DNA from: Bernardetia sp.
Lineage (GTDB): Bacteria; Bacteroidota; Bacteroidia; Cytophagales; Bernardetiaceae
Direction: 5' to 3'
Length of the DNA stretch: 38,621 bases
NCBI RefSeq assembly: GCF_020630935.1
Contig: NZ_JAHDIG010000012.1
Location: forward strand, 39,930-78,550
The notes below the pieces were generated by a model. That model was given only the letters and a program-made list of their open reading frames with translations, made no database searches and was not told where the DNA came from. Both the position numbers and the translations under genes were made by a program. Shown here piece by piece: positions 32,765 to 36,385 of this stretch (its first letter is position 1; every line of letters starts with the position of its first letter).

Positions 32765-33319
32765 TTATAGTGTAATGGCTAAAAATTTTGTTGTGTTGTT
32801 ATGATGGTCGTGGATATTTTTTTGAATAGCTTGTAGTCCATAATGATTTATTGCTTCAATTCCTCCAATAGCAGCAGCATCCAAATGTTGATTCATTTTC
32901 TGCTGTTCTGCCACCCAACGAATTGCTCCAGCCGTATCACTAAAGTTGGTTGGAACAATCATTTTATTTTTAGAGAGGAAATTACTGCATTCTGCAAGAG
33001 CCACAGGGTGTGAATAAGCAATGCTTAAATCTGAAATCTGCGTTCCTCTTTTGGCAGCTAAATGAAGCTGAATAGGTAAATTTATTTCCCCAATAATTTT
33101 CAAATTCATTGTATCAATTCTTTCATAATTATCTGCTACATTTCCAACAAGTGAGTTTTCAACAGCAATAATTCCTGTATTTACTTTTTTTGTAGCTACA
33201 GCATCTAAGAGCTGGTCAAAATTCTGACAATGAAGCCAATTATTTTTCCCTCCAAATTGTTTTTGTGCTGCCAAATGATGAAATGAAAAGAGTTTTCCTT
33301 GAATTGCGATGGTTTTCAT
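32765..33319 (-). CDS. pheA: Prephenate dehydratase without ACT domain
   Basis: The product, 184 residues from the ATG at 33319, converts prephenate to phenylpyruvate in phenylalanine synthesis. It shows IAVENSLVGNVADNYERID, HPVALAECSNFLSKN, SDTAGAIRWVAEQ, AAAIGGIEAINHYGLQAIQKNIHDHHNNTTKFLAI. The TRF catalytic motif reads TKF. The protein ends there: the Phe-binding ACT domain of ordinary enzymes, about 90 residues, is absent, so feedback control would have to come from elsewhere. The open frame extends 19 residues upstream, but that stretch overlaps the attenuator terminator and is not protein-like. Confidence 0.88.
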   Translation of the reverse strand: MKTIAIQGKLFSFHHLAAQKQFGGKNNWLHCQNFDQLLDAVATKKVNTGIIAVENSLVGNVADNYERIDTMNLKIIGEINLPIQLHLAAKRGTQISDLSIAYSHPVALAECSNFLSKNKMIVPTNFSDTAGAIRWVAEQQKMNQHLDAAAIGGIEAINHYGLQAIQKNIHDHHNNTTKFLAITL

Positions 33320-33352
33320 AGTCTTAGTTTTTAATAGGGTTATTTTTTTGCA

Positions 33353-33391
33353 TAAAAAAAACCCTAACTTTTTCAAGTCAGGGTTTAGAAG
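33353..33391 (-). terminator. Intrinsic terminator/attenuator in the pheA leader
   Basis: On the minus strand AACCCTGACTT (33385-33375) and AAGTTAGGGTT (33370-33360) pair over 11 bp (one G-U) around a GAAA tetraloop, followed by about seven U residues, ending 35 bp before the ATG of pheA. The left arm, CCTGACT, can pair instead with AGTCAGG inside the leader-peptide gene (33459-33453). CTTC (33391-33388) can pair with GAAG (33450-33447) in the same register. That would be the antiterminator. Confidence 0.8.
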
Positions 33392-33428
33392 TTTGTAGGG
33401 TTAGAGTTGTTACTTAAAATTTTGGCAA

Positions 33429-33515
33429 TCAACTTTTAGTCTGCTTCTTCGTCCTGACTAGAGGGCTAAAAAAGTAGAAATAATAAAAGTTAAAAGAGAA
33501 AATATTAAGGCTCAT
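33429..33515 (-). CDS. Phe/Tyr-rich leader peptide of the pheA attenuator
   Basis: A 28-codon frame starts at the ATG at 33515 and ends with TGA at 33429-33431. Residues 6-16 read FSFNFYYFYFF: six Phe and three Tyr among eleven. The C-terminus is basic (RTKKQTKS). The frame sits 110 bp before pheA and the terminator hairpin follows its stop by about 38 bp. This is the layout of ribosome-mediated attenuation: stalling on Phe codons would favour the antiterminator, fast translation the terminator. The same frame continues upstream to a TTG at 33635, but that TTG is part of a possible -7 box (TATTTTTG, 33640-33633). A second -7-like box CAGATTTG (33545-33538) is nearer. Confidence 0.75.
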   Translation of the reverse strand: MSLNIFSFNFYYFYFFSPLVRTKKQTKS

Positions 33516-33698
33516 CTTTTTTTGAATAGATGGTTTACAAATCTGAATATTTTTAAAAGTCAATTTCGCTTGACTTACTTCACAATGATAAACCTTATTT
33601 ATTAGAAAACAAAATTTTGCATAAAAAAAGGACAAAAATAATTTGTGAGTGAATAAGGCAGGGTTTCGCTCTTGTTCTGTGAAAGCAACCCTGTTAGT

Positions 33699-33961: not shown

Positions 33962-36385
33962 ATGAAAAATATTTTCTCATTTCTCTTATTCTTTCTATTT
34001 ACCTTATCAACTTCATTTGCTCAAAGTGATTTTAAGCCATCAGTTTCTGGAATTGTAAAGGACAAAAATGGAGAAATACTCATTGGTGCGACTGTAGTAT
34101 TAAAAAGTAGTCAAGTTGATGAAACTAATACAAATCTCACTAAGGGAACAGTAACGAATACACAAGGAAAATTTAGCTTTGCCTCTATTCCATCTCAAAA
34201 CTACACACTTACTATTTCATACATTGGATACGAGACTTACCAATCTAGTTTTAGAGTTTGGGCAGATACGACTTTAGCTGTTAAATTACCAGACGGAAAA
34301 ACACTTTCAGAAATTGTTATTCAATCGTATAGAGAGTATCCTGTTACACTAACAGAACTTAATAAGGAAGCTATTGAAAAACGCAACTTAGGACAAGATT
34401 TACCTATTTTATTACAATATACACCTTCAGTAGTCAGTACTTCAGATGCTGGTGCTGGTGTAGGCTATACAGGAATGCGTGTACGTGGAAGTGATGCAAC
34501 AAGAACTAATGTAACAATTAATGGTATTCCATTGAATGATGCCGAATCACAAGGTGTTTTTTGGGTAAATATGCCAGATTTTGCTAGTTCGGCAAGTTCA
34601 GTTCAGATTCAGCGTGGTGTTGGAACGTCTGTAAATGGTGCAGGTGCTTTTGGTGCTACTGTCAATATTTCTACTAACGAGCCTAGCGATGAAGCAGGTG
34701 CAGAGATTGGTAATTCTTTTGGTTCATTCAATACATTTCGTCATAATGTACAGTTCAATACTGGACTTCTGAAAGATAGAATTAAATTTTCTGGTCGTCT
34801 TTCAAAAATTACTTCTGATGGTTTTATTGATAAGGCATTTTCAGATTTGAAATCATTTTTTGTTTCAGGAGTCTATCAAAACGAAAAAGGAACAAACATC
34901 AAACTCAATATTTTTGGAGGAAGAGAACAGACTTTTCAAGCGTGGAATGGTGTTCCTCAAGAGATTTTAGAAGAAGGAAACCGAACTTACAACGAATTGG
35001 CAGGTTATGATAACGAAATAGATAATTACGGACAAGACCATTACCAACTTATTTTTGACCAAAAAATCAACGATAATTTTACAGCAAACATAGCTTTGCA
35101 TTATACAAAAGGAAAGGGATATTTCGAACAGTTCAAGTCAGATGAAGATTTTTCTGATTATGGATTAGAAGAAATTGTAATTAATGATTCTACGATAATT
35201 AATACTACAGACCTTATTCGCCGTCGTTGGTTAGACAATGATTTTTATGGAACTGTTTTTAATATCAACTATGAAAGTGATGCTACAAAAGGCAACGAAC
35301 CTGTCTTGACAGCTATCGTTGGAGGTGGGTATAATATTTATGAAGGAGCACATTTTGGCGAAATTATTTGGGCAGAATATGCTTCACAAAGTTCAATTAG
35401 AGACAGATATTATGAAAATGATGCTACCAAAACAGATTTTAATCTTTTTGGAAAGGTAAACTATCAGGTCATTGAAAACCTTTTTGCTTTTGCAGACCTT
35501 CAAATACGAACTATCAATTACGACTTTTTAGGTTTCGACAACAATTTGAGCAATGTGAAACAAAGCGCAAACTTATCATTTTTCAATCCTAAATTTGGTT
35601 TGACCTACAAGTTAGACAATCATCGTTTTTATGGGTCTTGGGCAAGAGCGAATCGTGAGCCAAATCGTGATGACTTTACAGAATCTACACCTTCTACTCG
35701 CCCAAAAGCAGAACGTTTGGATAATATAGAATTGGGTTGGAATGGTCGTTTTGACAAACTCTCTTTGTCTGCAAATTATTATCTAATGAATTATACTGAC
35801 CAGCTTATTCTGACAGGACAGGTAAATGATGTAGGTTCTTATACTCGCCAAAATGTAGATAAAAGTTATCGTACAGGTGTTGAGGTTGTGGCAGACTATC
35901 AGTTTAGTAAGAAATTCTCTTGGTCAGCAAATGCTACCTTTAACCAAAATAAAATCAGTGATTTTACAGAATATTTAGATGATTATGACAATGGAGGACA
36001 ACTAGAAATCAATTATGGAGAAACAGATATTGCTTTTTCGCCTTCTGTGATTGCTGCAAATACATTTTCTTTTCGTCCTGCTGATGGTTTTTCCATTAAC
36101 TTACTTTCCAAATATGTAGGTGAGCAGTTTTTAGACAACACTAGCACAGACACCAGAAAACTAGATGCTTATTTTGTCAATGATTTGCAGCTTGTTTATA
36201 ACTTCTCTTATAAGTTTTTCAAAAATATAGAACTCAACTTACTTGTCAATAATATTTTGAGTGAAGAATATGAAAGCAATGGCTATACGTTTGGTTATAT
36301 TTATGGAGGAGAAACTATTCGTCAGAATTATTTCTATCCACAAGCTGGGCGTAATTTCTTAGTAGGATTGAAACTTAAATTTTAG
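33962..36385 (+). CDS. TonB-dependent receptor, probably for thiamine
   Basis: The 807-residue protein has a signal peptide (1-20, ending SFAQ), an N-terminal CarboxypepD_reg-like domain (about 28-113: SGIVKDKNGEILIGATVVLK and YTLTISYIGYETY), a plug domain (about 118-235: MRVRGSDATRTNVTINGIPLNDAESQG and VQIQRGVGTSVNGAGAFGATVNI) and a barrel ending LKLKF with the usual terminal Phe. The TPP riboswitch just upstream strongly suggests import of thiamine or a precursor. In other Bacteroidota such a receptor is followed by the inner-membrane transporter pnuT and a thiamine pyrophosphokinase gene; here neither is next to it. Confidence 0.9.
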   Translation: MKNIFSFLLFFLFTLSTSFAQSDFKPSVSGIVKDKNGEILIGATVVLKSSQVDETNTNLTKGTVTNTQGKFSFASIPSQNYTLTISYIGYETYQSSFRVWADTTLAVKLPDGKTLSEIVIQSYREYPVTLTELNKEAIEKRNLGQDLPILLQYTPSVVSTSDAGAGVGYTGMRVRGSDATRTNVTINGIPLNDAESQGVFWVNMPDFASSASSVQIQRGVGTSVNGAGAFGATVNISTNEPSDEAGAEIGNSFGSFNTFRHNVQFNTGLLKDRIKFSGRLSKITSDGFIDKAFSDLKSFFVSGVYQNEKGTNIKLNIFGGREQTFQAWNGVPQEILEEGNRTYNELAGYDNEIDNYGQDHYQLIFDQKINDNFTANIALHYTKGKGYFEQFKSDEDFSDYGLEEIVINDSTIINTTDLIRRRWLDNDFYGTVFNINYESDATKGNEPVLTAIVGGGYNIYEGAHFGEIIWAEYASQSSIRDRYYENDATKTDFNLFGKVNYQVIENLFAFADLQIRTINYDFLGFDNNLSNVKQSANLSFFNPKFGLTYKLDNHRFYGSWARANREPNRDDFTESTPSTRPKAERLDNIELGWNGRFDKLSLSANYYLMNYTDQLILTGQVNDVGSYTRQNVDKSYRTGVEVVADYQFSKKFSWSANATFNQNKISDFTEYLDDYDNGGQLEINYGETDIAFSPSVIAANTFSFRPADGFSINLLSKYVGEQFLDNTSTDTRKLDAYFVNDLQLVYNFSYKFFKNIELNLLVNNILSEEYESNGYTFGYIYGGETIRQNYFYPQAGRNFLVGLKLKF

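Follow-up and report, generated by a model that had tools for sequence, protein, structure and literature searches.

A putative phenylalanine/tyrosine attenuator with an aromatic-rich leader peptide ahead of pheA in Bernardetia and its relatives

Leader, terminator and genes at the locus

The window, a stretch of 38,621 nucleotides from a Bernardetia sp. contig, carries on its minus strand, in this order, a promoter-like pair of elements, a 5' hairpin, a leader ORF, and then an AT-rich spacer and a terminator, behind which lie pheA and a chorismate mutase gene (Table 1). The leader is dominated by aromatic codons: residues 6–16 read FSFNFYYFYFF, with Phe or Tyr at nine of eleven positions, and this frame, recognized in the original prediction, is confirmed by its coordinates, its translation and a window-wide scan. 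Across all six reading frames of the window, no other 11-codon stretch contains nine or more Phe/Tyr codons, and 30 dinucleotide shuffles of the window produced no ORF of 12–45 codons at the leader's Phe/Tyr density. Phenylalanine supplies six of the nine aromatic codons and comes first in order. The presence of a Phe/Tyr-rich leader and a terminator before pheA is a confirmed observation.

Table 1. Features of the pheA leader region and the genes behind it, with positions in the window
Feature	Position	Strand	Details and basis
Putative Bacteroidota-type promoter	33614–33583	minus	TTTTG 33614–33610, 19 nt, TATCATTG 33590–33583
5' hairpin of the leader RNA, AAGTCAA/TTGACTT	33576–33557	minus	folding
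Leader peptide ORF	33515–33429	minus	28 codons, MSLNIFSFNFYYFYFFSPLVRTKKQTKS*, ATG at 33515
Phe/Tyr regulatory codon run, 9/11	33500–33468	minus	also strand 1 of the protector hairpin
Antiterminator 5' arm (strand 2), AGTCAGG	33459–33453	minus	extended by GAAG 33450–33447
Purine-rich leader tail, pairing back on the codon run (protector, 1:2)	33450–33429	minus	folding and tail-shuffle test
Small stem AGTTG/CAACT between strands 2 and 3, in the antiterminator loop	33434–33405	minus	folding
Intrinsic terminator	33386–33354	minus	5' arm contains strand 3, CCTGACT 33382–33376
pheA, prephenate dehydratase catalytic domain only, no ACT match	33319–32765	minus	184 aa; Pfam PF00800, E 4.1e-48
Chorismate mutase gene, next on the same strand	32606–32295	minus	103 aa; Pfam PF01817, E 3.3e-22

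Bacteroidota promoters follow the consensus TTTG-n-TAnnTTTG, which the putative promoter matches imperfectly. The nearest listed upstream gene (33962–36385) lies on the plus strand and is oriented away from the leader, so no upstream gene is evident that the terminator could serve.

Structurally, the terminator consists of a 12-bp stem of −15.6 kcal/mol, with its 5' arm at 33386–33375, a GAAA loop and its 3' arm at 33370–33359, followed by a T-run that extends to 33354. The hairpin originally placed at 33385–33360 is real in its GAAA loop and T-run but falls one pair short of this stem; the gap that separates it from the leader stop codon measures 42 nt rather than about 38, and pheA is indeed the next gene, but its ATG at 33319 stands 34 nt past the T-run rather than directly behind the hairpin. 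The alternative pairing holds exactly, AGTCAGG in the leader being complementary to CCTGACT in the terminator and GAAG to CTTC (33391–33388), and the antiterminator arm lies 8 nt past the last Phe codon. A short TAGTC/GACTA hairpin, earlier put forward as the competing structure, is present but weak (−3.9 kcal/mol), whereas pairing of the codon run with the leader tail reaches −13.7 kcal/mol in folds of the window and makes the better protector. The protector hairpin is thus probably formed by the Phe/Tyr codon run and the leader tail.

To follow a stalled ribosome, the window RNA 3' of it was folded codon by codon with 10 nt past the A site masked, which corresponds to the ribosome footprint beyond the A site. 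With strand 4 absent, all seven antiterminator pairs are left when the A site stands at codons 6–15, five at codon 16, two at codon 17 and none from codon 18 onward; the claim that a ribosome stalled in the run leaves AGTCAGG free is upheld in these folds. With strand 4 present, the minimum-energy fold is devoid of antiterminator pairs wherever the ribosome stalls, and the model therefore depends on co-transcriptional kinetics. Sequence and folding accordingly place at the locus a short ORF rich in codons for the pathway product before the cognate gene, an intrinsic terminator between the two, and an antiterminator that excludes this terminator and is free under a stalled ribosome, the last only before strand 4 is made.

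Conservation in the genus and recurrence across the class

The genus set comprises seven genomes (G000–G006), the window's own included. Six of them hold a single prephenate dehydratase, and these six also carry the leader; in the seventh (G004, 93% complete), neither pheA nor leader DNA was found. The leader is single-copy in the six apart from one match in G001, a candidate second leader that was rejected as a short chance match; it does not precede pheA, and the gene behind it resembles what we take to be bioB. A search for a second Phe/Tyr leader before the DAHP synthase-chorismate mutase gene found none in four of the seven genomes, bar a weak TTG frame in G000.

Across the six genomes the leader peptide is nearly identical. 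Among synonymous-comparable codons, 337 of 375 are identical in the leader versus 1543 of 2199 in pheA, figures that combine 15 genome pairs with a shared history and are hence a description rather than a test. The element TTTATnATTGTG precedes the leader in all six sequences, and the hairpin shortly 3' of the promoter-like element folds in all six with varying stem letters. The 3' strand of this 5' hairpin often contains GAC(T) across the genus and could also contact the AGTC arm. The 7-nt pairing AGTCAGG/CCTGACT is formed in 6/6 sequences and is invariant, its GAAG extension pairs in 83% of cells, and both strands of the AGTTG/CAACT stem are conserved in alignment A1. TAGTC/GACTA likewise pairs in 6/6, two of its pairs being kept via a one-sided G-U change. 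Compensating changes are absent from both the antiterminator and the terminator in these six sequences, and the argument for the pairing relies for that reason on comparison between genera, where arm letters differ and peptide tails vary widely while the complementarity of the arm is kept.

For the wider comparison, the window PheA was searched against 395 genomes of the class, 101 of which matched at E ≤ 1e-17, and up to 400 nt upstream of pheA were examined at all 101 of these class loci, with a leader defined as an ORF of 12–45 codons holding at least six Phe/Tyr in 11; duplicate loci (L125–L128) were excluded from the counts. Leaders occur at 70 of the 101 loci, in 19 of 30 families and 46 of 65 genera by kinship labels, and every one of the 70 is followed by a hairpin and T-run. 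The reverse strand gives 2/101 and dinucleotide shuffles give a mean of 1.4/101. On the computational side, conservation of the Phe/Tyr-rich frame and of the alternative pairing in relatives, on which the original prediction depended, is thus found both within the genus and in the recurrence of leader plus terminator across the class.

The remaining 31 loci have no leader by this definition. They include all eight loci of family f33 and five of the eight of family f19; pheA at these five begins no more than 10 nt from where another frame on its strand ends. Five loci (L034, L038, L042, L094 and L095) miss the strict count and stay uncounted, yet seem leader-bearing by eye. Three of these, from family f36 (L034, L038 and L042), seemingly have a shorter leader reading ...TYFWFYP... 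and then a terminator-like hairpin, again by eye. A PheA search outside the class set covered 30 loci out of 42 matching genomes. Leaders are found at none of ten loci with a distant PheA type (L021–L030) and at none of eight further loci with a nearer type (L008, L012 and L015–L020).

Family f12 displays a doubled arrangement. Sixty f12 genomes were searched and 46 matched; the best-scoring 30 of the 46 loci, a choice that favours relatives of the tandem query, all carry a leader, and 11 of the 30 carry two. At three of these 11 (L009, L010 and L014), each of the two serial leaders has its own terminator, and the other eight lie among L155–L170. Two candidate leaders are also present at L099, L110 and L124 of the class set.

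Pairing was quantified over 81 leaders in 75 loci, made up of the 70 class loci plus five further members of the genus; L025, whose single frame lacks a terminator, was left out, as were weak additional frames in L049 and L089. The arm is defined as the best pairing partner of the terminator's 5' arm among segments past the last Phe/Tyr codon, a choice by which stalled-state counts are partly built in. Arm pairing exceeds that of 200 region shuffles at p<0.05 in 71 of the 81 leaders and at p<0.01 in 51, and averages −15.0 kcal/mol for a leader's own arm versus −9.7 kcal/mol for arms of other loci. Compared with those of other loci, a leader's own arm comes within the best 5% in only 36/81 and within the best 10% in 46/81, partly because related loci share arm motifs. 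The arm starts at a median of 8 nt past the last Phe/Tyr codon (interquartile range 6–10), and its end, measured from the start of the stop codon, varies between 18 nt beyond and 22 nt short of that point. This spacing, tight to the codon run and loose to the stop codon, suggests that the device is anchored on the codon run.

The protector recurs as well, with a topology in the genus that departs from that of most relatives. Pairing of the codon run with the tail is stronger than with shuffled tails (p<0.05) in 59 of the 81 leaders, including five of the six from the genus. The tail segment paired with the codon run overlaps the arm by at least 3 nt in 68/81, and in 0/6 genus leaders does it overlap the 7-nt arm, which sits in the loop, so that exclusion there rests on GAAG and on topology. 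In ribosome-free folds with strand 4 absent, at least four antiterminator pairs are kept in 66/81 leaders; five of the six genus leaders keep none and the sixth (L004) keeps seven. A ribosome at the stop codon covers at least half of the arm in 58/81 leaders and less than 20% of it in all six from the genus.

Proposed attenuation mechanism and the alternatives

Collectively, these features very probably constitute a ribosome-mediated transcription attenuator that would sense charged tRNA-Phe, and probably tRNA-Tyr, and would control pheA together with the downstream chorismate mutase gene, a reading drawn from sequence and predicted folds. When Phe or Tyr is scarce, the leading ribosome would stall in the codon run and sit on strand 1; strand 2 (AGTCAGG...GAAG), left free, would pair with strand 3 (CTTC...CCTGACT) while strand 4 is still to be made, and RNA polymerase would read through into pheA. 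When both amino acids are ample, the ribosome would cross the arm and be released at the stop codon; the codon run could then refold on the purine-rich tail, with TAGTC possibly pairing with GACTA, and strand 3 would pair with strand 4, ending transcription 34 nt before pheA.

The off-state may be reached in two ways. In most relatives the off-switch is more likely a moving or terminating ribosome that masks the arm, since their ribosome-free leaders mostly keep the antiterminator and at least half of the arm is covered in 58/81. Release and refolding are likelier in the genus, where the arm stays free under a ribosome at the stop codon and these two steps must restore termination. The earlier statement that a ribosome running to the stop allows termination may consequently hold for the genus in that refolding could remove the antiterminator pairs, but not in the form of arm masking. 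The enteric-type reading as a whole is supported, with corrections to the protector, the stop step, the part given to Tyr codons and the argument from the ACT domain.

That last argument held that the leader suits an enzyme lacking its feedback domain, and it does not discriminate. PF00800 is the only Pfam family in the window PheA at E ≤ 0.001, but the PheA frame is at least 275 aa long in 99 of the 101 class matches, the exceptions being the window's own and that of G382, so ACT loss offers no explanation for the leader. Moreover, ACT matches, each below the Pfam cut-off, appear in 3/3 leader-bearing PheA proteins tested, and the 179-aa PheA of G382 (L118) has no leader; ACT loss as a general reason for the leader is rejected. 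PheA of catalytic-domain size is seen in the genus and at L118, where pheA lies directly behind a frame that ends like DAHP synthase-chorismate mutase. Because the only dehydratase found in the genus has no ACT match, the attenuator may be the main Phe/Tyr-responsive control of that enzyme.

The rest of the pathway bears on whether both aromatic amino acids are sensed. TyrA (PF02153) is matched in 0/7 genus genomes, but 20 of 52 other relatives likewise give no match at E ≤ 0.001, and this absence serves as a hint only, because one control genome was positive for TyrA in one search and negative in another, which makes the search imperfectly sensitive. An aromatic amino acid hydroxylase (PF00351) is found in 7/7 genus genomes. 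With one dehydratase in six of the seven and no TyrA match, the genus may make Tyr from Phe, and pheA may be the entry to both amino acids, which would fit a leader of mixed codons. TyrA near pheA would fit such a leader as well: a TyrA match lies 1.5–1.7 kb downstream of pheA in six genomes of families f12 and f19 (G021, G038, G053, G028, G043 and G057).

An attenuator that senses mainly Phe, with its Tyr codons incidental, is a possible but doubtful account. It draws on the Phe majority (6/9) and the leading position of Phe codons in the window and on the reaction of pheA, which makes phenylpyruvate; against it, all 81 leaders mix Tyr codons with Phe codons, to a total of 394 Phe against 304 Tyr residues, and the TyrA matches downstream of pheA and the possible route from Phe to Tyr in the genus speak for a role of both. 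Tyr is probably sensed as well as Phe.

It is highly unlikely that the leader ORF acts by translational coupling, or as a functional small peptide, instead of by transcription attenuation. Where short ORFs lie close to gene starts, reinitiation may raise translation (PMC4833913), but here 109 nt separate the leader stop codon from the pheA start, a terminator stands behind the leader in 70/70 leader-bearing class loci, and peptide tails diverge widely between genera with arm complementarity kept. Slightly less probable again is control of the terminator by a metabolite-binding riboswitch or a T-box, which a structured 5' region with a terminator might suggest: no Rfam family reaches its gathering score in the window or in ten related leader-bearing loci, and the 17 weak Rfam matches at E ≤ 10 include no T-box or amino-acid leader. 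Least probable of all is that an intergenic stretch rich in AT and pyrimidines yielded the leader by chance and that the hairpin is an ordinary terminator, for although weaker Phe/Tyr-rich frames (6–7 of 11) lie at 12 other sites in the window and some related pheA loci are leaderless, the class-wide recurrence far above both controls, leader codons more conserved than those of pheA and a terminator with no evident upstream gene to end all count against it.

The attenuator reading extends, with more reserve, beyond the genus. It seems somewhat likelier than its opposite that these loci represent a family of Phe/Tyr attenuators, undescribed and outside Rfam, that spans much of the class, in which the codon run doubles as strand 1, the arm follows the last aromatic codon by about 8 nt and is not anchored on the stop, and one lineage has doubled the device into a serial two-step gate. 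Recurrence in 19 of 30 families with differing arms and kept pairing makes attenuation in this Bacteroidota class look old and widely used. The position of the arm, about 8 nt past the last regulatory codon, offers a testable design rule, and the tandem form, if true, would place two serial attenuators in the path of transcription as a two-step gate.

Comparison with known leader systems

Enteric pheA attenuators combine a Phe-rich leader peptide with an alternative antiterminator and terminator before pheA. The E. coli example (Rfam RF01859, Phe_leader) resembles the present site in its Phe-rich peptide, its alternative structures and its position directly before pheA. The site differs in that Tyr codons are intermixed, the stop codon lies about 20 nt past the antiterminator arm, PheA has no ACT match and chorismate mutase is encoded by a separate gene. 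In scans that scored 150 first-pass candidates per genome, RF01859 exceeds its gathering threshold of 55 bits in 0/7 genus genomes, the best score being 31 bits at a non-pheA site of G004, and it exceeds the cut-off in one of 14 control genomes. The pheA leader site is absent from 30 weak matches to the family, and the family is absent from the 17 matches at E ≤ 10 in 33300–33620. A Lactococcus leader RNA named for leucine and phenylalanine (RF01743) is comparable by that name; the available text of PMC2864571 lists it for Lactococcus lactis only, and it is not among the matches in the pheA leader region here.

Taxonomically closer is a 5' element of Flavobacterium psychrophilum, from the same phylum, structured and likewise ahead of pheA, which the available text of PMC9723704 describes as shared with other Flavobacteriaceae genera and as having no Rfam match. 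That text also reports strong clues for leader peptide attenuation before amino-acid operons in this species, and presents the pheA element without codons, arms or a pheA mechanism. In Bacteroides thetaiotaomicron, a transcript map mentions leader-like short ORFs in the part of PMC7366714 available. Beyond PMC9723704, the literature searched, mostly short of full text, yielded no description of this pheA attenuator, and within it the spacing rule and the tandem form were not found in print. To judge from the letters and their predicted pairings, the mechanism would be that of the enteric pheA leader at a site outside the Rfam Phe_leader family, with the spacing rule and the tandem form as apparently new parts. 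Given a known mechanism and the earlier clues from F. psychrophilum and B. thetaiotaomicron, the element is filed under a known kind of attenuator.
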